DNA from: a virus
Length of the DNA: 29,894 nucleotides
Virus record (IMG/VR): IMGVR_UViG_3300048809_000020
Span: 1 to 29,894 of that record
Direction: 5' to 3' (one strand)
Shown here: positions 4,844 through 24,373 of the stretch, one piece after another
Position numbering within the stretch: the stretch's first letter is position 1
How the letters are laid out: every line of letters begins with the position of its first letter
Program-made: the position numbers and the translations under genes
Notes under the pieces: generated by a model
Told to the model about the DNA's origin: nothing
Database searches by the model: none
The model's input: the letters and a program-made list of their open reading frames with translations, nothing else

Positions 4844-5500
4844 CTACTGAGGGAGAAGTATCCAAAAGATTTGCACTCCCATCAGGCTCTGGTTCTCGAT
4901 CTTCTGAAACGTCCCGCGCCCGGCTGGGTCGGCATAATTGTACTCCGGATTCGAGACGCCAACCGCGTTCGCTGGAACCGGAGCGACCGTGGAGTTGTTT
5001 GTGTCCGCGGAGTTGTACATGGCGAATCCACGATACGTGAGCGGCCCATTGATGCCGACGATGGCTGTTCCCACAAGGCTCACGGGAGCCGGAGGCGGCG
5101 GCGCGGGCGGGGTGAACGGAGGATAATCGGCGGGGTTCAGGCTGACGCTGATCGCGCCGACTGGCGGGTTGTTTGGATCGTACTCGGCGTATCCCGGGAA
5201 TTGGATTCCCGGAGCCACGCTGACGTTGGGCTGGCCCGCGTTCGGGACCCACGTATAGCCGTCAACCAGCCGGGACATCATCACAGCGGGCGCGGGTCCC
5301 CAGCCGAGCACCATGATCGGATAATCGACCACGAATCCCTGGGCCAAAAGCGAAAGCGCTTGGGCCTCGGTGAAAGGAGCGAACTGCGCGCCCTGAAGCG
5401 CCGGCGGTTGTGCCGCCCAATACTGCGCCGTCGTAACCGTAACGGCGGGATACGGGTTGGCTGAAAGTATGCAAGCGTCCGAGGTCTTGAGCGTAATCAC
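4844..5500 (-). CDS. Hypothetical proline-rich virion or accessory protein
   Basis: A 218-aa protein. GTG 5498-5500 is preferred over the TTG just before it because AAGGAG then stands 6 nt away. The N-terminal half (residues 1-90) is globular, with Trp and aromatic residues (AQYWAAQPP, MVLGWGPAPAVM). A middle segment (about 95-142) is rich in Pro, with a PPFTPPAPPPPAP linker. The C-terminal part (145-218) begins VSLVGTAIVGINGPLTYRGF and ends IFWILLPQ, again beta-like. The two-domain architecture with a Pro linker would suit a fibre-attached or surface-exposed protein. No signal peptide is present. I do not recognise the family. It lies 12 nt after a secreted protein gene. Confidence 0.7.
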   Translation of the reverse strand: MITLKTSDACILSANPYPAVTVTTAQYWAAQPPALQGAQFAPFTEAQALSLLAQGFVVDYPIMVLGWGPAPAVMMSRLVDGYTWVPNAGQPNVSVAPGIQFPGYAEYDPNNPPVGAISVSLNPADYPPFTPPAPPPPAPVSLVGTAIVGINGPLTYRGFAMYNSADTNNSTVAPVPANAVGVSNPEYNYADPAGRGTFQKIENQSLMGVQIFWILLPQ

Positions 5501-5512
5501 CAAAATCTCCTT

Positions 5513-6334
5513 TTAAGGCAAACATCCGGAATGGGCTTGGAAGTCGCAGTACCCAGCGGCGACTGCGATCTGAACCGGTACCGGCCGCATTGAATGCACT
5601 GGCAGGTCCAGTGATTTGGCGATAGCCAGGTTGACGGCAGTGCCCGCAAGCGTTCCGTGGGGCACGTCGTCGGGCACGAAGCTGGGGGACTCATCCGCGC
5701 GTAGACGCAACTGAACCGGCGGCACCGGAGGCGGCGGCGCATTCGGCGGAACCGATTCGAGCGTAAACGGGACCGCTGACTGCAGGGTGTAACCCCTGGG
5801 TGGCTTTTCCACCCACACATCGCAGTTCAGCGACTGCCCGGCCGCCAGACTAACGTTGAGCTGATCGCACGGATGGAACGTCGGCAGCGCGATCTGCGTG
5901 GCCTGAAGGAACGGCAGCACGCCCTGGTTTCCAAAAGCGACTCCGAACAGCAGGTAGGCCAGCGCCTTTGCGCCGATATGCACTGCGGAGCCAACCCCCG
6001 AAGCCAGCCCCACGCCTGCGGCCACCATCGTCAGGATATTCATTACCCTGCTCGCGGGCTCCTTCGCAAAGGATTGATTTACCAGCGCTTGTCCTTCGGA
6101 GCTTGACACTGTGGGCACCGTCGATAGTGCCAGATTGATCGTGCTGGTGTTGATGTTGACCGTTGCCGGTCCCTGATTGCTCACCTGAGCGCTCCCATGC
6201 AGCACCGGCAGCCGCGAGCCGTACAATTTCTTCGCCATCATCGATGAATCGATCACCAGCTTGCCGTTCACCACGGCCGTCTGCGACCAGCCCACGGAAT
6301 AGGCCAACAGGAAAATCAAAACCTTTTTGGTCAT
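5513..6334 (-). CDS. Exported protein with internal membrane segment
   Basis: A 273-aa protein with signal peptide MTKKVLIFLLAYSVGWSQ. A middle hydrophobic region (about residues 96-140, from MNILTMVAAGVGLASGVGSA to LLFGVAFGN) could form one or two membrane spans. Between them lies a Ser/Thr/Asn-rich exposed segment. After about residue 150 come C154 and C169, a Pro-rich linker (PPNAPPPPVPPVQ) and a C-terminal part with C261 and C270. The overall plan is an exported envelope protein with extracytoplasmic Cys pairs. It overlaps the stop of the cysteine-peptidase-fold gene by 4 nt (ATGA). A role in lysis, exclusion or receptor masking is possible; none is shown. Confidence 0.75.
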   Translation of the reverse strand: MTKKVLIFLLAYSVGWSQTAVVNGKLVIDSSMMAKKLYGSRLPVLHGSAQVSNQGPATVNINTSTINLALSTVPTVSSSEGQALVNQSFAKEPASRVMNILTMVAAGVGLASGVGSAVHIGAKALAYLLFGVAFGNQGVLPFLQATQIALPTFHPCDQLNVSLAAGQSLNCDVWVEKPPRGYTLQSAVPFTLESVPPNAPPPPVPPVQLRLRADESPSFVPDDVPHGTLAGTAVNLAIAKSLDLPVHSMRPVPVQIAVAAGYCDFQAHSGCLP

Positions 6335-16247: not shown

Positions 16248-17405
16248 TCAAGCTCCTATACCATAGAACTGCTTCTGATGGCGCGCAGAAGTGAAGACGA
16301 GGTTCACGGCGGCATGGGTTCTGGCAACCACCTTGGTTGAATCGGCGGCCGGATAGAAGCCCCATAGCCCGAACTGGTACCGCGGGCTGGTGGACAGCCG
16401 GAACTGAATCTTGCTGGTGTTGAACCACACGAACACCTCGCCGACCGTGGCGGTTGCGCCGGCGGCGGGAAGGTTCGATTTGCTCGAAACACCCGAGGGC
16501 ACGGTGAAGGTGCTGGTCAGGTAGTTCCCGAGCGATCCGTTGGCGCCGTAGGCGAGCGACGGGAAATAATCGTCGGGGAAAATGATCGCGTCGTTCATTG
16601 CGACGCCCGAGACACCCCAGATGGCGTCCTGCTTGGTCGCCAGCTCGCCGCGCTGCAAGGGCTGGATCTTTTCCTTGATGTAGGCGAACGCCCGCTTGGT
16701 CGTTACTCCCAGGTCGGGCCGCTCCCGGCCGATCGACGCATCCCAGTACCCCTCTTCGAGCACCGAGTAGGTCAGAGCGCCGGCCGCCGAAACGTTTCCG
16801 GTGGTGGTGGTCGAGTCGCCGCAGTATCGCGGGATGGAGTTGAACGTCGAGCCGATGGCTCCATTCCGAGCCTGGCCGCCGTAGGACGTGAAGATCGAGC
16901 CGTCCCAGCCCGGCGTGATGCCGTCGTTGATGGCCTCGGGCCAGCCGTTGATGTCGTAAGGCCGGTTCCCTACGATGCCCGATCCGGTGGGCTGCCCGTG
17001 CAGCGACATGGCGATCGCGACATCCGCGCAGATCGAGTTCATCATGTTCGCCATGTTCAAATTGAGCAGCGAGAACACCGCATTGGGTCCGACGTTCAGC
17101 ACGTCGATGTTCTCCATGTACTCCGGATAGATCGACACGTAGTACTTCGGGTCGAACCGGGTACCGGCGATGGTCTGCACCTTCTCCAGGTTGAACTGGG
17201 CGCCGAGGCCATACGAGTTCGTGATGAGCGGAGCGTACAAGAACGTCTGCTGCATCGTGGAACCGCCGCCGAACGTCGCCAGACAGTGATCGCGGATGTA
17301 TGCGAGGAACGCTACATCGTTGAAGAAATTGTCTTGAACTGTTCGCGGCCAGATCTCGTATACTGTGGTGGCGCTAAGTTCGTCTAACCCCGGATCATAA
17401 CTCAT
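16248..17405 (-). CDS. Major capsid protein
   Basis: A 385-aa protein preceded by the scaffold gene and a strong AGGAG 6 nt from the ATG. The N-terminal region (VYEIWPRTVQDNFFNDVAFL, AYIRDHCLATFGGGSTMQQT) reads as an N-arm plus the first capsid helix and strand. A central spine-like helix (NLNMANMMNSICADVAIAMS, about 115-135) precedes IGSTFNSIPRY and a long beta/alpha domain. KRAFAYIKEKIQPLQRGELA and AMNDAIIFPDDYFPSLAYGA lie in the second half. The end (RYQFGLWGFYPAADSTKVVA and KQFYGIGA) is typical of HK97-fold capsid proteins in podovirus-like clusters. No prohead-protease gene is seen next to it, so a separate scaffold is likely used. Confidence 0.85.
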   Translation of the reverse strand: MSYDPGLDELSATTVYEIWPRTVQDNFFNDVAFLAYIRDHCLATFGGGSTMQQTFLYAPLITNSYGLGAQFNLEKVQTIAGTRFDPKYYVSIYPEYMENIDVLNVGPNAVFSLLNLNMANMMNSICADVAIAMSLHGQPTGSGIVGNRPYDINGWPEAINDGITPGWDGSIFTSYGGQARNGAIGSTFNSIPRYCGDSTTTTGNVSAAGALTYSVLEEGYWDASIGRERPDLGVTTKRAFAYIKEKIQPLQRGELATKQDAIWGVSGVAMNDAIIFPDDYFPSLAYGANGSLGNYLTSTFTVPSGVSSKSNLPAAGATATVGEVFVWFNTSKIQFRLSTSPRYQFGLWGFYPAADSTKVVARTHAAVNLVFTSARHQKQFYGIGA

Positions 17406-17426: not shown

Positions 17427-18314
17427 TTAGTGACTCGCTTCTCGATTCCCGCCAGCGCGGTACTTTCCCGAAGCGAACGCAGCGACCGCATTCGCAACCG
17501 CCTGGGCTCCGTTCATATCCCTGTTGTGCGGGGCGGTAAGCCCCTTTTCTTTGCTGTTCGCCATCGTGAACAGCGGACCCATCGGAAGATCCGTGCGGAT
17601 TCCGTTGACCTGCTGCCCGCTGTACTTCTTTTCCAATTCTTCCGTGGCCTTCGCCGCGCCTTCCGCGCGGTACTTGTCGGCCTTGATCTCTTCGCGCTTC
17701 GCCGTAGCGCCGTACTTGTCGTCCCACACCTGCGTCATGGTGCGGCGCTGTTTCACCGCGTCATCGAGCAATTCCTTCATCACCAGTGGCTTGTCCGGGA
17801 ACAGTTCGGAGTGCTGCCGGGCCACGTCCATCATCTCGACCTGAAGATTCACGTTGTCGCGGAACAGGTTCTCCACGAGATCAACGCGCTTGATGATGTC
17901 CGGGCCGGGCCCGGGTTGCGGATCTTCTCTCTTCTGCGGGATCACGGGGTCTCCTTCGCCAAACAATTCCTTGTCGAGAGGAACGCCGTAAAGTTCCGCT
18001 GCGGTCTTGGCCTTCGCGCGCACGGTGGCGAGCGCGGCTTCGGCTTGTTCGCGGCTCTTCAGACCAGCGATGTACTGGTCGTTGATGGCCTGTTTTTGGA
18101 TCTCGAACGCATCCAGTTGTTCCTGGAGGGTCTTTTTGGCGGCATCGAGCTCCGCCTTGCCGGAGTTCATCTTTCGGTCGTAATCGCTTTGCCGCAAATA
18201 CCCCTGGAGTCGCTCTTCAAGCGCTGCGGCTGCCTTCGGATTCTTGGCGATCTCTTCCGCTACGGTCTTATCGACCCCAACGGCTGCGAGTTCGTCTACG
18301 AGTTGAAATGCCAT
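17427..18314 (-). CDS. Capsid scaffolding protein
   Basis: A 295-aa acidic and basic, strongly helical protein directly upstream of the capsid gene, the normal place for a scaffold. N-terminal helices (FQLVDELAAVGVDKTVAEEI) precede a long coiled coil (about 50-105, AELDAAKKTLQEQLDAFEIQ and on). A Pro/Gly-rich hinge (QKREDPQPGPGPD, about 127-139) follows, then helices (VENLFRDNVNLQVEMMDVAR). The C-terminal region is Ala/Lys/Glu-rich and ends KYRAGGNREASH, a basic tail of the kind that contacts capsid subunits. AAGGA lies about 12 nt before the ATG, a long spacing. The intervening 21 nt before the capsid gene carry that gene's ribosome binding site. Confidence 0.8.
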   Translation of the reverse strand: MAFQLVDELAAVGVDKTVAEEIAKNPKAAAALEERLQGYLRQSDYDRKMNSGKAELDAAKKTLQEQLDAFEIQKQAINDQYIAGLKSREQAEAALATVRAKAKTAAELYGVPLDKELFGEGDPVIPQKREDPQPGPGPDIIKRVDLVENLFRDNVNLQVEMMDVARQHSELFPDKPLVMKELLDDAVKQRRTMTQVWDDKYGATAKREEIKADKYRAEGAAKATEELEKKYSGQQVNGIRTDLPMGPLFTMANSKEKGLTAPHNRDMNGAQAVANAVAAFASGKYRAGGNREASH

Positions 18315-18362: not shown

Positions 18363-18683
18363 TCATCCCATGTCTCCGGTGGGGGGTTGGCTTTCCGATG
18401 GTGAAGAACCAATGATTTTAACCAGCAACTGCGTGAGGCCCCGCTTCAGCGTCAGGATGTCCTGAGACACCGCCGGGTATTGCCTCGCCATTCCGTCAAG
18501 CTGCGAGCTGAGATTGCGCACCTGCATTCCAGCTTGCTGCTGCTGCTGGATGCGCAGTTTGTCGGCGCTGTCAGTCTTCGGAGCCTCTGCCTGAACGCCC
18601 AGAACGTCCGCGTAGGGACCCATCTCCGTACCGGAGGAGGATGGCTGGCCGCCAGGATTCGGGAATGATTGCGGGCTGGTCAT
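18363..18683 (-). CDS. Small helical head-module protein (106 aa)
   Basis: A 106-aa protein with a disordered Pro/Ser/Gly-rich start (SFPNPGGQPSSSG) and a helical middle with a Gln run (LRIQQQQQAGMQVRNLSSQL), then a second helix (YPAVSQDILTLKRGLTQLLV) and a Ser/Pro tail. Similar small proteins ('...P.G..~......~qi..l..~f....~...~k~~l~~~~~~i') sit before the scaffold gene in environmental podoviruses; their role is not known to me. The ATG is 5 nt after the stop of the 34-aa basic gene with no strong ribosome binding site, so coupling is likely. Possibly a scaffold partner or minor head protein. Confidence 0.7.
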   Translation of the reverse strand: MTSPQSFPNPGGQPSSSGTEMGPYADVLGVQAEAPKTDSADKLRIQQQQQAGMQVRNLSSQLDGMARQYPAVSQDILTLKRGLTQLLVKIIGSSPSESQPPTGDMG

Positions 18684-18688
18684 TGCGA

Positions 18689-18793
18689 TTACTTGCGAAC
18701 CGCCTTCCGCGCCGACTTCATCGGCGTGGTCAGCTTGGCCTTCCCGGACGCTTTGGTGGGCTTCTTTCCGTAATGTGCGTACTGGTTAGCCAT
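18689..18793 (-). CDS. 34-aa Lys-rich micro-protein
   Basis: A short gene with an excellent AAGGAG 6 nt before ATG 18791-18793. The product is MANQYAHYGKKPTKASGKAK then LTTPMKSARKAVRK: eleven or so Lys/Arg in 34 residues and almost no acidic residue. Such a peptide should bind nucleic acid or an acidic protein surface and could be a virion DNA-associated peptide. The gene is preceded by two hairpins at 18813-18894 and followed 5 nt later by the 106-aa gene. The clean ribosome binding site and its place at the head of the capsid genes make it credible despite its length. Confidence 0.65.
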   Translation of the reverse strand: MANQYAHYGKKPTKASGKAKLTTPMKSARKAVRK

Positions 18794-18812
18794 TTGAATC
18801 TCCTTTTTTAGT

Positions 18813-18838
18813 GGGGCAGCCTTCAACGGGCCTGCCCC
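18813..18838 (-). other. Strong RNA hairpin just upstream of the 34-aa gene
   Basis: In the minus-strand transcript GGGGCAG pairs with CTGCCCC (7 bp), extended by CC/GG with a single bulged G, around a 7-nt loop. It is followed by ACTAAAAAAGGAG, the ribosome binding site of the micro-gene, and not by a U-tract, so it is not an intrinsic terminator on this strand. It could protect a processed 5' end, pause transcription or keep the ribosome binding site single-stranded. Confidence 0.6.
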
Positions 18839-18846
18839 GCGTGTAC

Positions 18847-18894
18847 CCTGACTTTGCGAGGGGAACCTTGCGGTTCGATCTACGCGGAGTCAGG
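18847..18894 (-). other. Long irregular RNA hairpin with GNRA loop
   Basis: In the minus-strand transcript CCTGACT pairs with AGTCAGG (7 bp). After a 2x2 internal loop GCG pairs with CGC. After a further internal loop GAACC pairs with GGTTC, closed by a GCAA tetraloop (GNRA class). The whole element is 48 nt, directly after the stop of the 23-aa gene and 8 nt before the next hairpin. Stacked stems, purine-rich internal loops and a GNRA cap are typical of structured RNA. Possible roles are an RNase III site, a translation or mRNA-stability element, or a protein-binding site. Confidence 0.55.
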
Positions 18895-18899
18895 ATGGA

Positions 18900-18971
18900 T
18901 TACTTCTTGCCGCGCTTTTTCCCGCCGTGCTTTTTCCGGCGCATCGAAACCTGCTCGTAAGTGCTGAACAT
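18900..18971 (-). CDS. 23-aa basic micro-protein
   Basis: ATG 18969-18971 to TAA 18900-18902. The product is MFSTYEQVSMRRKKHGGKKR then GKK: eleven basic residues in the last fourteen. It is preceded by GGAGAAAGGA, with AAGGA about 12 nt before the ATG, a loose spacing. It is the first frame after the terminator at 19000-19038, and similar in composition to the 34-aa product that follows. Alone, so short a frame would be weak evidence; the purine-rich leader and paired basic micro-gene raise it. A nucleic-acid-binding peptide is the natural guess. Confidence 0.45.
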   Translation of the reverse strand: MFSTYEQVSMRRKKHGGKKRGKK

Positions 18972-18999
18972 TTCGGTGTCTTTTCCTTTCTCCGCAAAT

Positions 19000-19038
19000 A
19001 AAAAAACGGCTCCACCGGGGGTTACCCGATAGCGCCGT
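19000..19038 (-). terminator. Intrinsic (rho-independent) terminator
   Basis: In the minus-strand transcript ACGGC pairs with GCCGT and the stem continues through a G/A mismatch to ATCGGG/CCCGGT (one or two G-U pairs) around a UAACC loop: about 13 pairs, then TTTTTTT. It is the best terminator in the window. It would end transcripts from the packaging operon, and also those from the promoter only 30-odd nt upstream, unless it is bypassed. The capsid genes lie downstream. Confidence 0.8.
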
Positions 19039-19071
19039 CCAATTTCGCGGTACGCTCTTTTTCTACTTGAG

Positions 19072-19101
19072 ATTAGACTCTTTTTTGCATAGCCTTGTCA
19101 A
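19072..19101 (-). promoter_or_regulatory. Sigma70-like promoter before the head genes
   Basis: -35 TTGACA (perfect) at 19096-19101, 18-nt spacer containing an AAAAAA run, -10 TCTAAT (5 of 6) at 19072-19077. The start of transcription is expected near 19065. The -35 begins 7 nt after the stop of the 59-aa gene, outside coding sequence. It is the best vegetative-type promoter I find in the window and faces the scaffold and capsid genes, with the intrinsic terminator lying in between. Confidence 0.7.
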
Positions 19102-19108
19102 GTGGAGG

Positions 19109-19288
19109 TCAGTCCACTCGCAGTGGCGGTTTATCCGCCGGCAGTTTTTCAATCCATTTGTGCGTCCCGCTCGGCGAGCCTTGACTGGTGTTTATGCGCC
19201 ATTCCCCATTCCGCTTTTCACGCGCGACGACCTTGATCGCAGCCGCCAGCTTCGCGTTGGGAACCGTGACCGTCTTCTCATCCGTCAT
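19109..19288 (-). CDS. Small hypothetical protein after portal (59 aa)
   Basis: A 59-aa protein starting at ATG 19286-19288, 4 nt inside the end of the portal gene (ATGA). The much longer open frame upstream lies within portal and is not favoured. The product starts MTDEKTVTVPNAKLAAAIKV and contains VAREKRNGEWRINTSQGSPS and HKWIEKLPADKPP. It looks like a small alpha/beta domain with a basic centre. No membrane segment. I do not recognise it. It is the last gene of the packaging operon; the promoter and terminator described here follow directly, so it probably marks the end of that transcription unit. Confidence 0.65.
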   Translation of the reverse strand: MTDEKTVTVPNAKLAAAIKVVAREKRNGEWRINTSQGSPSGTHKWIEKLPADKPPLRVD

Positions 19289-21330
19289 CGGCTCGTTACG
19301 GTCGTAGATCGCGTCCCTTGATCTTTTTGTTTGACCTGCGGCGGCTTGGCATTCGTGGGAGGACGCCCGCGCCCTTGACCCTGCGGTGAGCCGATTTGCA
19401 GATCCTCGGCGAGCGCGTGCTTCATTTCCTGCTCCACCATGAACTTGTCGGGCTCGCTGATGGCGGGTTCGCCGTCTCGCATCTCGGGCAGATCGCCCAT
19501 ATTCAATCCAAGCCCCGTTCCGATGGTGTGATCGCTCACCATGATACCGGCCTTCTTGGCCTGGAGCAGTGTCAGGTTCCGGCCAATACGCGATACCTGG
19601 GCCTGCGAGTACGGCTCGATGTCGTAGCTCAACTGCTCGATCATCCACCGCGCCCGCTCCCATTTGCTGTAAATCGAGTCCTGCTGAGGGTCCTCGTGCG
19701 GGAGATGCGAGGGAATCAGTTCACCTGGGCTGAAGTCGAACATCTGCTTCACGGCGCCATCCTGACCAAGTTCCTGGAATACCTTCCCGGAGGTCCAAAA
19801 TTGAATCGCCATCGGGTAGAACAGTTCATCGAACTGCTGGCAGGCGATTTCACCGCCGCGCGAAATATCCTGAACCACCGGACCAGCCTGTTCGAGGATC
19901 TTTTCAATCGAATCTGCGCTCGGCACCTGCTTGGCCTTGGCGACCGCCATCAGATCCTTCACTACCGACATTTCATCGATCTCGTTCTTCAGCAGTCCCA
20001 GGACCTGAATGATCCACTGTGGAACGTCCCAGAACGCCACAGGCAGCAGCGGCTGAACCGGATCGCCCATTCCCAGAGCCGCCTGGACCGTCTGCCCTGG
20101 GATGCGCGTGTTGATGCGCGCCATCGCGGTCGGGTCCAGAACGTTGGGATCGTACTTCAACGGCGGTTGCAGGCGCACTAGAACGCTGTCCACCACGGCC
20201 CGCCACATCTGGTTCTCGGCCTTCTGAATCCTCCAGGTATCGTGAATGATCGAAGTGCCGAGAAAATCCCACGGATAATCGTCGAAGCGCAACTGGACGC
20301 GCGGGACGCGGCCGTGCAGATAAGGCGATGTTCCGTCCTTCAAGATGCAGGTGTCCGTCCAGATCGCCCGCCGGCGCAGCGGGAACAGGCGGCAGTCCTC
20401 TTCGGCCGCGCGCTTCATCACCATGCGCCCCTGCGAGTCCCGGTACCCGGTCGGGATGTCCTGCCCAAGATACGGGACTCTGTACTCCCAGCTTGTGCCG
20501 GGGTCGCCCATCGGGATCACCTTGCCGGTGTTGTTGATGCTCATGTCCATGATGTAGGTCGTGTAGACATCCACCATGGGCATTTCTTTTCCAACCGACC
20601 GCTGAGGCGTATCGAGCACTCCGACGACACCATTAGACTGCGAAGACGATCGCTTGAGCTTGTCCCACGTCCGCGCCATCCAGCCGGGGAAAGATCGCGA
20701 AGGTTCGATCAAATGCTGAAAGGCCGGGTAATTCGCCACGACCAGATGCAGCGGAACCTCTTCCGGGATCGTAACCGCGTAGGCTTTCTGAATGTCGTTG
20801 TCTTCGGTAATCATCACCGGCATCACCGACGATGGGCCTCCGACCTTGCAGGAAATCTCGCCGCGCCCGTATCCGTAGAAATTAGGGTCCCACCACGGTT
20901 CCAGATATCCCGTTCCCAACCCGGAAGCATACTGGCAAGCTTCCCGGTACTTTCGATCCTGAGCGGTCTTGCGCCACCAGATCTTCTTCATCTGGTTCAG
21001 CCGCCAGATGGAATTCTGCGCCGCCTGGTTGTGCGTCACCGCTTCCCCGGTCGGCCTCAGGTTCGAGATGGTCGCCACTAGATCCCGGAAATTGCGCTTG
21101 ATGCGGTTGATCGAAACTGTCGAGTATCCCGATACCTTGAGCGGGGTCGTGTCAAAGCTCAGGATGTCGTAGGCCCTGGGGATATCCTGCCAGGCCGCCT
21201 GCGATTCGAGGAACGCCTTGCCGGTGTCGCGCAGCTCCTTCAGGCGCCCGAGAGTCAGCTCCTGGATGCCCTTTGCTCCCGCGAGCTGCTCCAGATACGA
21301 CGGGATCTTGTACTCGCTCAGCCCCGGCAT
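19285..21330 (-). CDS. Portal protein
   Basis: A 681-aa protein, in the size range of podoviral portals. The N-terminal part carries RLKELRDTGKAFLESQAAWQ, then ISNLRPTGEAVTHNQAAQNS ('lRP' near residue 90), and DRKYREACQYASGLGTGYLE followed by PWWD, the pattern 'a...a...GtGyl...~D'. The middle has DDYPWDFLGTSIIHDTWRIQ, the typical 'p..~~G.S.i......q...n' helix of portals. The C-terminal half is helical (LLKNEIDEMSVVKDLMAVAK) with a Gln/Pro/Gly-rich tail (GSPQGQGRGRPPTNAKPPQ). Twelve copies would form the DNA channel and dock the terminase. AGGAGG stands 8 nt before the ATG. Gene order large terminase, two small genes, portal supports the call. Confidence 0.85.
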   Translation of the reverse strand: MPGLSEYKIPSYLEQLAGAKGIQELTLGRLKELRDTGKAFLESQAAWQDIPRAYDILSFDTTPLKVSGYSTVSINRIKRNFRDLVATISNLRPTGEAVTHNQAAQNSIWRLNQMKKIWWRKTAQDRKYREACQYASGLGTGYLEPWWDPNFYGYGRGEISCKVGGPSSVMPVMITEDNDIQKAYAVTIPEEVPLHLVVANYPAFQHLIEPSRSFPGWMARTWDKLKRSSSQSNGVVGVLDTPQRSVGKEMPMVDVYTTYIMDMSINNTGKVIPMGDPGTSWEYRVPYLGQDIPTGYRDSQGRMVMKRAAEEDCRLFPLRRRAIWTDTCILKDGTSPYLHGRVPRVQLRFDDYPWDFLGTSIIHDTWRIQKAENQMWRAVVDSVLVRLQPPLKYDPNVLDPTAMARINTRIPGQTVQAALGMGDPVQPLLPVAFWDVPQWIIQVLGLLKNEIDEMSVVKDLMAVAKAKQVPSADSIEKILEQAGPVVQDISRGGEIACQQFDELFYPMAIQFWTSGKVFQELGQDGAVKQMFDFSPGELIPSHLPHEDPQQDSIYSKWERARWMIEQLSYDIEPYSQAQVSRIGRNLTLLQAKKAGIMVSDHTIGTGLGLNMGDLPEMRDGEPAISEPDKFMVEQEMKHALAEDLQIGSPQGQGRGRPPTNAKPPQVKQKDQGTRSTTVTSR

Positions 21331-21522: not shown

Positions 21523-22121
21523 TTCCGCATCCGCCCGCCATCCCGGTTCCTGCCGTCTTCGCGGTTGCTGGCGTCACGCGACAGCGCATCAAAGAAAAAG
21601 GCTCCCTGGTACTTCTCTCGCGGCCTATTGTCATTCTCGCGCATCGCGAACCTTGCGAAATCCCGCTGCGACTCGCGCATGGGAGGAACGAATCTTCTTT
21701 CCCCGTCCTTCCCGATGATGTAGCCGCCCTGCTGCATGACCTGCCGAAGCTCCGCGCGGTTGTGCCTGGTCACGATCTCGCTCTGCATTTCCTTGCCAAT
21801 CCGGGCTCGCTCCCACTTCTCGCGATGCTCCCGGTCGATCTCGCGCTCCACCTGCCGCTTCTGCCATGTTTCCCGAAGCTCTATCCTCTCACATCCCTCC
21901 GGGATAAGCGCATCCTTCTGACCTGGAAGACCATAGGTCCCGTCCGGGCGCTTGTACACCACCAGCGTTTCGAGATAGTCCCGTGGTGAAAAAGCCACGT
22001 AAATGCGTGGTGATTCTGCACCACACTCCGGGCACGGCTGCGGTTTTTCGCAGTCGTCCATCTTGGCGAACTTCTCGAACCGACCGTGTTCCTGGCAGTC
22101 AAAGTCGTAAAGAATTGGCAT
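21519..22121 (-). CDS. Zinc-ribbon protein (FmdB-like N-terminus)
   Basis: A 200-aa protein starting in a TGATG junction with the large terminase. The first 40 residues are an FmdB-type regulatory zinc ribbon: MPILYDFDCQEHGRFEKFAK, with Cys9, His12, Cys30 and Cys33 (CPECG) as likely ligands. His12 replaces the usual second Cys. The rest (about 75-200) is a long charged helix with many Arg, Glu and Gln (QKRQVEREIDREHREKWERA) and a basic, disordered end. FmdB ribbons occur in small phage proteins near the terminase, where they may bind DNA or the packaging motor. Coupling to terminase suggests a packaging accessory role. Confidence 0.75.
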   Translation of the reverse strand: MPILYDFDCQEHGRFEKFAKMDDCEKPQPCPECGAESPRIYVAFSPRDYLETLVVYKRPDGTYGLPGQKDALIPEGCERIELRETWQKRQVEREIDREHREKWERARIGKEMQSEIVTRHNRAELRQVMQQGGYIIGKDGERRFVPPMRESQRDFARFAMRENDNRPREKYQGAFFFDALSRDASNREDGRNRDGGRMRK

Positions 22122-24373
22122 CAGCCTTCGTCCTCCCAGCTCGCGCCCATTGCTCCCGGATGAACACTCACGGCTGCGCCCGCGAACGTCTCCCTGAGCG
22201 CCGGCGCGCCGCCATTCGCTAGTTGCTGCGGGCTCACGGTCGGAGGCGCGTAATCGTCTCCACCGAGTACTTCACGATACATGGGCGACGCCTCCTGCTC
22301 CCGCTGCTTCCGCAAATAGCTGATCGACTGCGCTTTACCGCTGATCTCCATTATGTGCAGCGACACCCAGATTATGCCCAGGGCCATGTAGCGATCGTCG
22401 TGCTGGCCGGATTCGGCGCGCGCCGCCTGCATCCCTTCGTCTCTGTGTAGCGCCTGCATTTCTTCAACGAACCGGGGTGAGTTGATATCGATCTCGCCGT
22501 CTCGCAGGGCCTTAATCGTGTAATCGATCACCATCGCGCGGCTCCAGCGATTCGTAACGAAACCCAGCCGCGTAGCGGTCGAAGGGTCGATCTTCTTTCG
22601 ATCCGTCCGCACCCAGTTGTGGAAGTTCGCCCAGCCCCGCTTTCGCAGTTCGAGCTGCGTAATTTCGCCGTTGAAATTGACCTCAATCGCCATTCTCGGC
22701 TGTTGATGACTCGCGCCCTGGTAAAACAACCCAACACAGTGACAAATGGACACGAAATCGGCCGCATTTATATACTCGCTGGCAAATTCGCACACCTGAA
22801 TATCGTTGTGCTCGAATGTTCCTTTACACAGTCCTTCGAGTACGGTGCGATCCTGGCCCACTCCGTCTCCCGTATCCACTCCGAAGCCGTAGGTTTCTCC
22901 GTATCGCGGCCACTGGAATACCATCAATTTCCCGGTCGGGTCGCCCGTCTGCCAACCGGGCCACTTGAGCGGCACCATCTGATACGGCCCCACGTCGATT
23001 ATTTTCCTGGTGGTGTCGCGATCATGCTCGTCGGCTTGTAATCGGGCCGGCAAAAGATGGATCGGCCCGCGGAATCCGAATACCCCTAGCGGCTCCTGGC
23101 AGTGCGTGTTGTAGGAGGAAAGCGTATCCACGTCGAACACGCTCTCGCCCGATGCGATGAACGATTCGAGATCGTCCGATGCAAATTCCCGAAGGAAGCG
23201 CGCCGTGTCTTTCTTTGAGGCGTAGTCTTCCTTGGTGATCTGCCAGAACCACATCTGCTCAAGCGGCATCTCCCAGTTCTCGGGATAGTGTCGTCGCAGC
23301 AGCTTGTCGGCCCGCACGAACTTTTTAGCGCGGCTTGCGTGTCCGATCGTCTCGCCGTTGGGATGCCAGCCCCGTTCCTTGAGTTTTAGCCGGACGGCCT
23401 CGTGGACCGCTGCCGGGTCCTCCGTGCTCATCTCCAGCTTGAAGGATCTTTTGAGCTGCGTCGGAGTCGGATAGAAGTTGAACGCCACAAACCACGGCAG
23501 GAACCCCGGCCTGAACTTGGCTTCGCCCTGCCAGTAGTGGCTCTTGCAGCGATTCCAGGTCTTGTACCACCAGCCGTAAGGCCCTTCACCGGTAGACTCC
23601 AGGATCACGATCTTGCTGGGATCTTCGTGAACCGCAGGCACCAGACCGGCGTCGATTAAGTCTTCTGCATTCAAATACGAAGCGACCTCCGAGAGGTGGA
23701 CGCAATCTGGGGTATTTCCGCGCCCGATGTCGTATTTCTGGGCGCCGTGCTGAACAATCAGCTTCGAATTGAGTTCCCCGAACTCCATGCGGGTTCCCAT
23801 CCGGTCCCGCGTCATCTCAGGCTTGAGCCAGTAGGGAATCCAGTCGTAAAGCTGCTTGTACTTGTCCACCATGTCCTTCGACCGCTCTTTGTCGGAGGAA
23901 CCCGTCAAGGCGATGACATTGGGGAAGAACAGGGTCCGGTGCCCGATCACAACCTGGGAGTCCGTGGTGATTCCGCACTGGCGGCCCTTCAGCCACATCA
24001 TCATGATCGCCCAGCCCATGTCTTCGAGCTCTGAGCGCGCGTCGTTCACCACGAGCTGCGCGATGTTCGGCGAATAGTGAATCACTTCGCTTTTGGCTAA
24101 GATCTTGGCGTAGCGCGTCGCAAAGTACAAGTAATCGACCTGGCTCAGGTACTTCTCGTTCTCAATCCACTTGACCTCTTCCCGGGTAAAGAGCATTCGG
24201 GGAGTACTTGGGGTGTAGGGCGGCTCACCGTACTGTTCCTTGTACCGCTGAAGCTTGTCGTCAAAGTGCGCGGCCGCTTCGTCGCAGGCTTCGACGGAAT
24301 GGTAGACCAGCTCGTAGCCGAGGTCTTCTTCCGCGACCTTCAGCCCTAACTCTACGCTCTTGCGGCTGTACAT
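22121..24373 (-). CDS. Terminase large subunit
   Basis: A 750-aa packaging motor and nuclease. Walker A-like KGRQCGITT at 129-137 fits the 'K.RQ.G.ST' form of phage terminases. PDCVHLSEVA (222-231) occupies the Walker B position with Ser-Glu in place of Asp-Glu. ILESTGEG (257-264) is the coupling motif. The C-terminal RNase H-like nuclease starts at GFGVDTGDGVGQD (Asp500, Asp508), with IEVNFNG (Glu564) and a late HDDRYMALGI (Asp659/660) as further acidic residues. The protein cuts genome concatemers and pumps DNA through the portal. At 750 residues it is longer than many terminases, with an extra charged N-terminal segment of about 60 residues and a disordered C-terminus. It starts 9 nt after the small-terminase candidate. 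Confidence 0.9.
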   Translation of the reverse strand: MYSRKSVELGLKVAEEDLGYELVYHSVEACDEAAAHFDDKLQRYKEQYGEPPYTPSTPRMLFTREEVKWIENEKYLSQVDYLYFATRYAKILAKSEVIHYSPNIAQLVVNDARSELEDMGWAIMMMWLKGRQCGITTDSQVVIGHRTLFFPNVIALTGSSDKERSKDMVDKYKQLYDWIPYWLKPEMTRDRMGTRMEFGELNSKLIVQHGAQKYDIGRGNTPDCVHLSEVASYLNAEDLIDAGLVPAVHEDPSKIVILESTGEGPYGWWYKTWNRCKSHYWQGEAKFRPGFLPWFVAFNFYPTPTQLKRSFKLEMSTEDPAAVHEAVRLKLKERGWHPNGETIGHASRAKKFVRADKLLRRHYPENWEMPLEQMWFWQITKEDYASKKDTARFLREFASDDLESFIASGESVFDVDTLSSYNTHCQEPLGVFGFRGPIHLLPARLQADEHDRDTTRKIIDVGPYQMVPLKWPGWQTGDPTGKLMVFQWPRYGETYGFGVDTGDGVGQDRTVLEGLCKGTFEHNDIQVCEFASEYINAADFVSICHCVGLFYQGASHQQPRMAIEVNFNGEITQLELRKRGWANFHNWVRTDRKKIDPSTATRLGFVTNRWSRAMVIDYTIKALRDGEIDINSPRFVEEMQALHRDEGMQAARAESGQHDDRYMALGIIWVSLHIMEISGKAQSISYLRKQREQEASPMYREVLGGDDYAPPTVSPQQLANGGAPALRETFAGAAVSVHPGAMGASWEDEG

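Follow-up and report, generated by a model that had tools for sequence, protein, structure and literature searches.

Outside the lambdoid phages and a handful of other models, the control of late genes is, to our knowledge, poorly known. In phages of the lambda type (lambda, 21, 82 and the Stx phages) the late promoter pR', which is of the sigma-70 type, is followed by a short leader and by an intrinsic terminator, tR', that has to be passed before the late genes are transcribed. The site of the lambda Q protein, qut, lies partly within the spacer of the promoter (PMC6266700). In phage HK022, put, an RNA of about 70 nt with two stem-loops, acts on far terminators (PMC9378689). The N protein, which belongs to the N/nut system, is characterized by arginine-rich RNA binding.

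The DNA considered here is a virus contig of 29,894 bases (IMG/VR record IMGVR_UViG_3300048809_000020), the whole of which is referred to as the window. All relevant genes are on its minus strand, in the order terminase, portal, a 59-codon gene, a promoter-terminator unit, tiny genes, scaffold and capsid (Table 1). As in the lambda-type phages, the late genes are preceded by a sigma-70 type promoter and, no more than about 200 nt further on, by an intrinsic terminator. Unlike in these phages, the unit lies between the portal and the capsid genes, and RNA reading through the terminator enters a tiny basic gene directly. From sequence comparison we give a little better than an even chance to the reading that the unit, in a family of phages of soil Acidobacteriota, is the late promoter of the capsid operon with a leader attenuator, which antitermination or regulated read-through would release. 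Searches of NCBIfam and Pfam with the region 19109-19312 yielded zero matches, family searches with the probable scaffold protein gave nothing significant, and a DNA-level search of phage records with the window revealed no similarity.

Table 1. Features of the promoter-terminator unit and of its neighbourhood in the window
Feature	Position	Strand	Basis or remark
Terminase large subunit (upstream operon)	22121..24373	-	phrog_2, E 9e-11
Portal protein (upstream operon)	19285..21330	-	phrog_156, E 1e-10; 30% to Tunturi_1 portal
59-codon gene, no assigned function	19109..19288	-	Starts inside portal stop codon; ends 7 nt before -35
-35 hexamer TTGACA	19096..19101	-	Read directly; TTGACA in 32 of 34 modules (a count partly selected, the modules having been collected by looking for TTGAC), TTGACT in 2
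-10 hexamer TCTAAT	19072..19077	-	18-nt spacer; TAnnnT in most relatives
Leader, predicted start to hairpin foot	19039..19066	-	GCGnA motif in all close relatives (alignment A6)
5' arm CCGCGAA of putative enclosing stem	19044..19050	-	MFE fold; permutation p = 0.003 for the close group (group chosen after viewing the sequences)
Intrinsic terminator, 13-pair hairpin and T7	19000..19038	-	Terminator scan, folding; compensatory changes in relatives
3' arm TTTGCGG of putative enclosing stem	18992..18998	-	MFE fold; directly before ribosome site
Extended Shine-Dalgarno AGAAAGGA	18984..18991	-	Sequence; AAAGGA kept in close relatives
First tiny gene MFSTYEQVSMRRKKHGGKKRGKK	18900..18971	-	Sequence; first gene past terminator
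Conserved structured stretch between tiny genes	18794..18899	-	Fold z -3.2 (18790-18905); conserved in alignment A1
Second tiny basic gene MANQYAHYGKKPTKASGKAKLTTPMKSARKAVRK	18689..18793	-	Sequence
106-codon gene, no assigned function	18363..18683	-	
Probable scaffold protein	17427..18314	-	By position
Major capsid protein	16248..17405	-	phrog_9953 major head protein, E 1e-5; 31% to annotated Tunturi_1 major head protein

The initial annotation had proposed a promoter TTGACA-18-TCTAAT with a start near 19065. This promoter is read on the minus strand, and its position predicts a transcription start at about 19066-19064. The two hexamers match the consensus in 11 of 12 positions, the exception being position 2 of the -10 hexamer, which is a C instead of the usually critical A. 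Because the automatic scan requires an A at exactly this position, it reported the terminator of the window and missed the promoter. It should be noted that the promoter scan of the window revealed no excess of promoters.

The terminator hairpin was likewise described correctly: ACGGC-G-CTATCGGG / CCCGGTGG-A-GCCGT at 19038-19006 forms 13 pairs around a G/A mismatch and is followed by seven T that end at 19000. The segment 18996-19045 folds with -23.5 kcal/mol (z -4.0 versus dinucleotide shuffles) and the 69-nt transcript with -25.3 kcal/mol (z -2.5). The predicted RNA from promoter to terminator is about 59-65 nt long, start site and terminator efficiency being predictions here and throughout. 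Among relatives both sides of the stem have changed with pairing kept. A search of Rfam 15 with the unit gave no match at the gathering score; a match to the DUF2815 RNA stayed below threshold (25 bits versus 41 required).

Relatives were found via protein searches with capsid, portal and terminase and via one DNA pattern. The unit is present between the portal and the scaffold/capsid genes in about 34 lineages, a number that does not count independent events since several modules are mutually related, and the capsid identity ranges from 92% down to 33%. The common order is portal, small gene, promoter, terminator, tiny basic gene, scaffold and capsid; thus the scaffold and capsid genes lie past the terminator not only in the window, for which the initial annotation had noted it, but widely. 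A gene similar in size to the 59-codon gene is found between portal and promoter also in L010, L013, L027 and L031. The close relatives, with capsid identities of 82-92% and on independent contigs (L007/L010, L011, L012/L013, L014-L019 and L020), all have TTGACA, a -10 hexamer at a distance of 17-18 bases, and a hairpin with a T-run. Four other IMG/VR contigs and one contig from a metagenome-assembled genome (MAG) binned as Bryobacterales are identical to the window at the unit, and L027 (terminase 33%) and L031 (capsid 34%) have kept the full order with unrelated sequence. The promoter-terminator anatomy is conserved.

From the 36 modules a set of 34 was obtained by omitting a near-duplicate and a module that has no TTGAC. 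In this set the information content per position is 2 bits in the -35 hexamer (1.7 bits at its last base) versus 0.14 bit in the spacer, and the distance between the hexamers is 18 in 22 modules, 17 in 8 and 16 in 4. TTGACA is exact in 19 of the 21 modules that also match the downstream pattern of the blind scan; L093 is the sole pattern match with a tiny basic gene in which TTGAC is missing. Free variation of the hexamers among close relatives, which the initial annotation had named as evidence that would speak against it, is not what is found, the -35 being constant and the spacer not. For example, L011 and L020 are identical in 104 of 104 positions from the -10 hexamer to the start codon, their spacers agree at only 4 of 17, and their -35 hexamer (TGCTTGACAGG) is intact inside an otherwise diverged block of about 50 nt with identical flanks. 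The picture is the same for L013 versus L047 (spacer 4 of 14 identical versus 88 of 92 after it). The block itself (L011 4235-4285, L020 3484-3534; about 50 bases) looks replaced, as if by recombination or free drift.

A terminator was found in 30 of the 36 modules, 54-139 nt past the predicted start, with stems of approximately -19 to -43 kcal/mol and with T-runs; the finder overlooked that of L031, which is plain on visual inspection. The sequences of the stems differ among lineages and the pairing stays. The leader before the terminator has 17-38 nt in the close group and 65-89 nt in other lineages. Six modules (L077, L080, L083, L094, L095 and L104) have kept the promoter and have no terminator, as is also the case for L028 and L056, from which it follows that the terminator is dispensable. 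In four full genomes of 57-59 kb, strong pairs of a promoter and a near terminator were found only at the capsid-operon site, where they were detected in two of the four, the -10 hexamer at this site being under the score cut in the other two; the genome-wide terminator scan is too permissive for ranking sites.

Relatives in culture are Tunturi_1 and Tunturi_2, phages of Tunturiibacter (PP887698, PP885685), with 31% for the capsid, 30% for the portal and 26% for the terminase. Their terminase, portal and capsid genes are homologous to those of the window and in the same order, and tiny Lys-rich genes are found between portal and scaffold. Unlike the window, they lack the combination of a TTGACA promoter and a following terminator, and an HNH gene lies in between. 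The reverse order, terminator before promoter, is seen only in Tunturi_1, where the promoter is weak. In the text of the paper on the Tunturi phages the words promoter and terminator are absent (PMC11924767), and our literature search on late-gene control in Acidobacteriota phages found nothing. The kinship with the Tunturi phages and the one Bryobacterales MAG point to Acidobacteriota as the host group, which is not proven for the window phage. This host group, the tiny Arg/Lys-rich genes and the possible read-through structure around the terminator are features that the initial annotation did not contain.

How far does the likeness to pR'/tR' go, which the initial annotation had already pointed out? 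As a way of working the comparison stands, the order being conserved; as membership in the Q system it does not. In 16 phage genomes there was no match above cut-off to the Q families PF03589 or PF06530 (the Q82 family PF06323 was outside the search), and NusG paralogues (PF02357) were absent from the same number of phage genomes. The spacer between -35 and -10 is without the conservation expected of a Q-binding site (0.14 bit per position; 4 of 17 in L011/L020), and a sigma-dependent, -10-like pause element is not enriched in the initial transcribed region (13 of 34 modules versus 12.2 in shuffles). Lacking Q of two families, NusG, a spacer site and pause enrichment, the locus finds no support as a Q system. 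When the complete genome of the window phage was compared with ten relatives, no candidate antiterminator came to light, the early genes being hardly shared. With put of HK022 the unit has in common that a promoter-proximal phage RNA precedes a terminator and that no protein factor is known, but the leaders of the close group, with 17-38 nt, are too short for a put-like fold.

The likeness to N/nut resides in the basic peptides beside the leader RNA, which recall the arginine-rich RNA binding of N. An Arg/Lys-rich peptide of 13-25 residues is encoded at the place of the first tiny gene in 36 of 36 modules, each module having been delimited at the start codon of such a peptide. Close relatives, and likewise L027, L031 and L032, also have a second small basic gene. 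In Pfam and NCBIfam the tiny peptides have no match, and tblastn of one of them against phage records gave none; they form a small protein family new to these two collections. Its approximate pattern is M-x-F-G/E-x-V-A-N-R-R-G-R/K...KKR, with one or two members per phage in the gap between portal and scaffold (window, L010-L122 and L124). The stretch between the two tiny genes, in which CTCCGCGTAGA...GCGGGG is kept in relatives, is possibly a structured RNA as judged from folding; a match in Rfam was not obtained. It is a difference from N/nut that tiny basic peptides are encoded also by Tunturi_1, L028, L056, L094 and L104, which lack the terminator; this argues against antitermination as their sole role. 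A boxA-like sequence in the leader is not recurrent (3 of 34 modules).

Many lineages have a leader whose sequence complements the segment immediately past the T-run, and the terminator may be the tip of a longer stem in read-through RNA. In three groups, picked by us after viewing the sequences, the pairing of a leader with its own post-terminator segment beats pairing across lineages (p 0.0016, 0.003 and 0.022 in a permutation test that preserves the make-up of the segments). This preference suggests a functional read-through RNA, although two other tests are unsupportive: the energy of the duplex of leader and post-terminator segment is not different from that with shuffled segments (mean z -0.02), and the enclosing pairs in the predicted folds, 338 versus 310 in shuffles, are not significantly above expectation. 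The total fold energy of the read-through RNA is below that of shuffles in most lineages, and in L063, L065, L074 and L076 several pairs of the enclosing stem show changes on both sides by eye. RNAalifold did not find the stem in alignment A5, in which by eye the arms are off by one register in approximately half of the rows. The enclosing stem is likely but not established by these predictions; if real, it could be selected for only in RNA that extends past the terminator. A second hairpin, GAGTAnCGATAG-stem-GGTCGG-GAAAGGAG, is well supported; it stands directly before the tiny gene's ribosome site in L062-L122 (e.g., L062 850-907, L066, L074-L076, L094, L115 and others), with four pairs changed on both sides and none broken. 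L090 seemingly has two copies of it.

In the attenuator reading, host RNA polymerase with the main sigma factor would start near 19065 and by default stop at the hairpin near 19000, leaving a transcript of roughly 60-65 nt. At a late stage of infection the hairpin would be passed, probably in a regulated manner, and the tiny basic genes, scaffold, capsid and tail genes would be transcribed. In the read-through RNA the leader would pair with the segment past the T-run, and the terminator would become the tip of a longer stem that extends to where ribosomes bind ahead of the first tiny gene. A trans-acting factor or an RNA element might mediate the read-through. Controlled read-through would best explain why so many lineages have kept a terminator past a strong promoter. 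Against the attenuator reading count the modules that have a promoter and no terminator, the enclosing stem not exceeding shuffles in two tests, the -10 hexamer without A at position 2 in the window lineage, Tunturi_1 being without the unit, and the fact that no antiterminator gene was recognised in the searches for Q and NusG and in the early-gene comparison. A special form of it, which we regard as doubtful, is that the leader RNA itself or a tiny Arg/Lys-rich peptide drives read-through in a positive loop of the Tat or N kind, confined to about 200 bp and without a relative of Q, N or NusG.

In our ranking the main rival of antitermination is a fixed leak, in which a constant share of polymerases passes the terminator without any factor and the hairpin, which would also end the terminase-portal transcripts, sets the level of capsid mRNA. 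That known antiterminators were not found in the searches for Q and NusG fits this, as does the loss of the terminator with retention of the promoter in some lineages, as if dosage alone were tuned. However, stems of -19 to -43 kcal/mol with T-runs exceed what mild attenuation needs, for which a weaker promoter would be equivalent, and the leader is nearly unchanged where the spacer has been replaced; we consider a fixed leak to be rather unlikely, if the most serious of the alternatives. Less probable than this is that the hairpin serves chiefly to end the terminase-portal mRNA at its 3' side and to protect the capsid mRNA at its 5' side, and that new transcripts are terminated there only incidentally. 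The hairpin does sit between the two halves of the operon, and folding predicts extensive structure in the read-through RNA as far as the ribosome site, but the order promoter, then terminator has been kept, whereas such a function would be better served by the reverse order of Tunturi_1.

Late-promoter leader RNAs can function elsewhere as small RNAs, and the initial annotation had offered a free small RNA as an alternative. Such an RNA of about 54-139 nt, acting in trans on phage or host mRNAs, would be in keeping with the compact unit framed by promoter and terminator and with the conservation of the leader among near relatives. Yet the complementarity of the leader to the phage genome (10-12 nt) does not exceed that of shuffled leaders, there is no Rfam match, and length and sequence vary widely among lineages, which leaves this explanation with little support and makes it quite improbable. 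Finally, promoter-like and terminator-like sequences could co-occur by chance, and indeed the -10 hexamer of the window is off consensus at a critical base and the window scan gave no excess of promoters. The recurrence of the unit at the same position in the roughly 34 partly related lineages, with the -35 constant and the spacer free to vary, refutes this explanation, to which we assign a practically negligible probability. That an entire phage family has kept the unit, with no recognised antiterminator, points to a late-gene control that has not been described, and at less than 250 bp the template is short and well bounded.

Insertions adjoin the unit in several lineages: in L042/L043 after the small gene, in L032 at 1310-1900 and in L124 at 5009-5605. 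The gene inserted in Tunturi_1 is annotated as an HNH endonuclease, and by eye endonuclease-like stretches are found on the opposite strand in L032 and L042/L043. The contig PLDF01000311.1 (58,988 bases; L033 and L151-L153), which was binned with a Bryobacterales MAG, is apparently not host DNA but a full phage genome in circularly permuted form, and it carries a serine recombinase gene.
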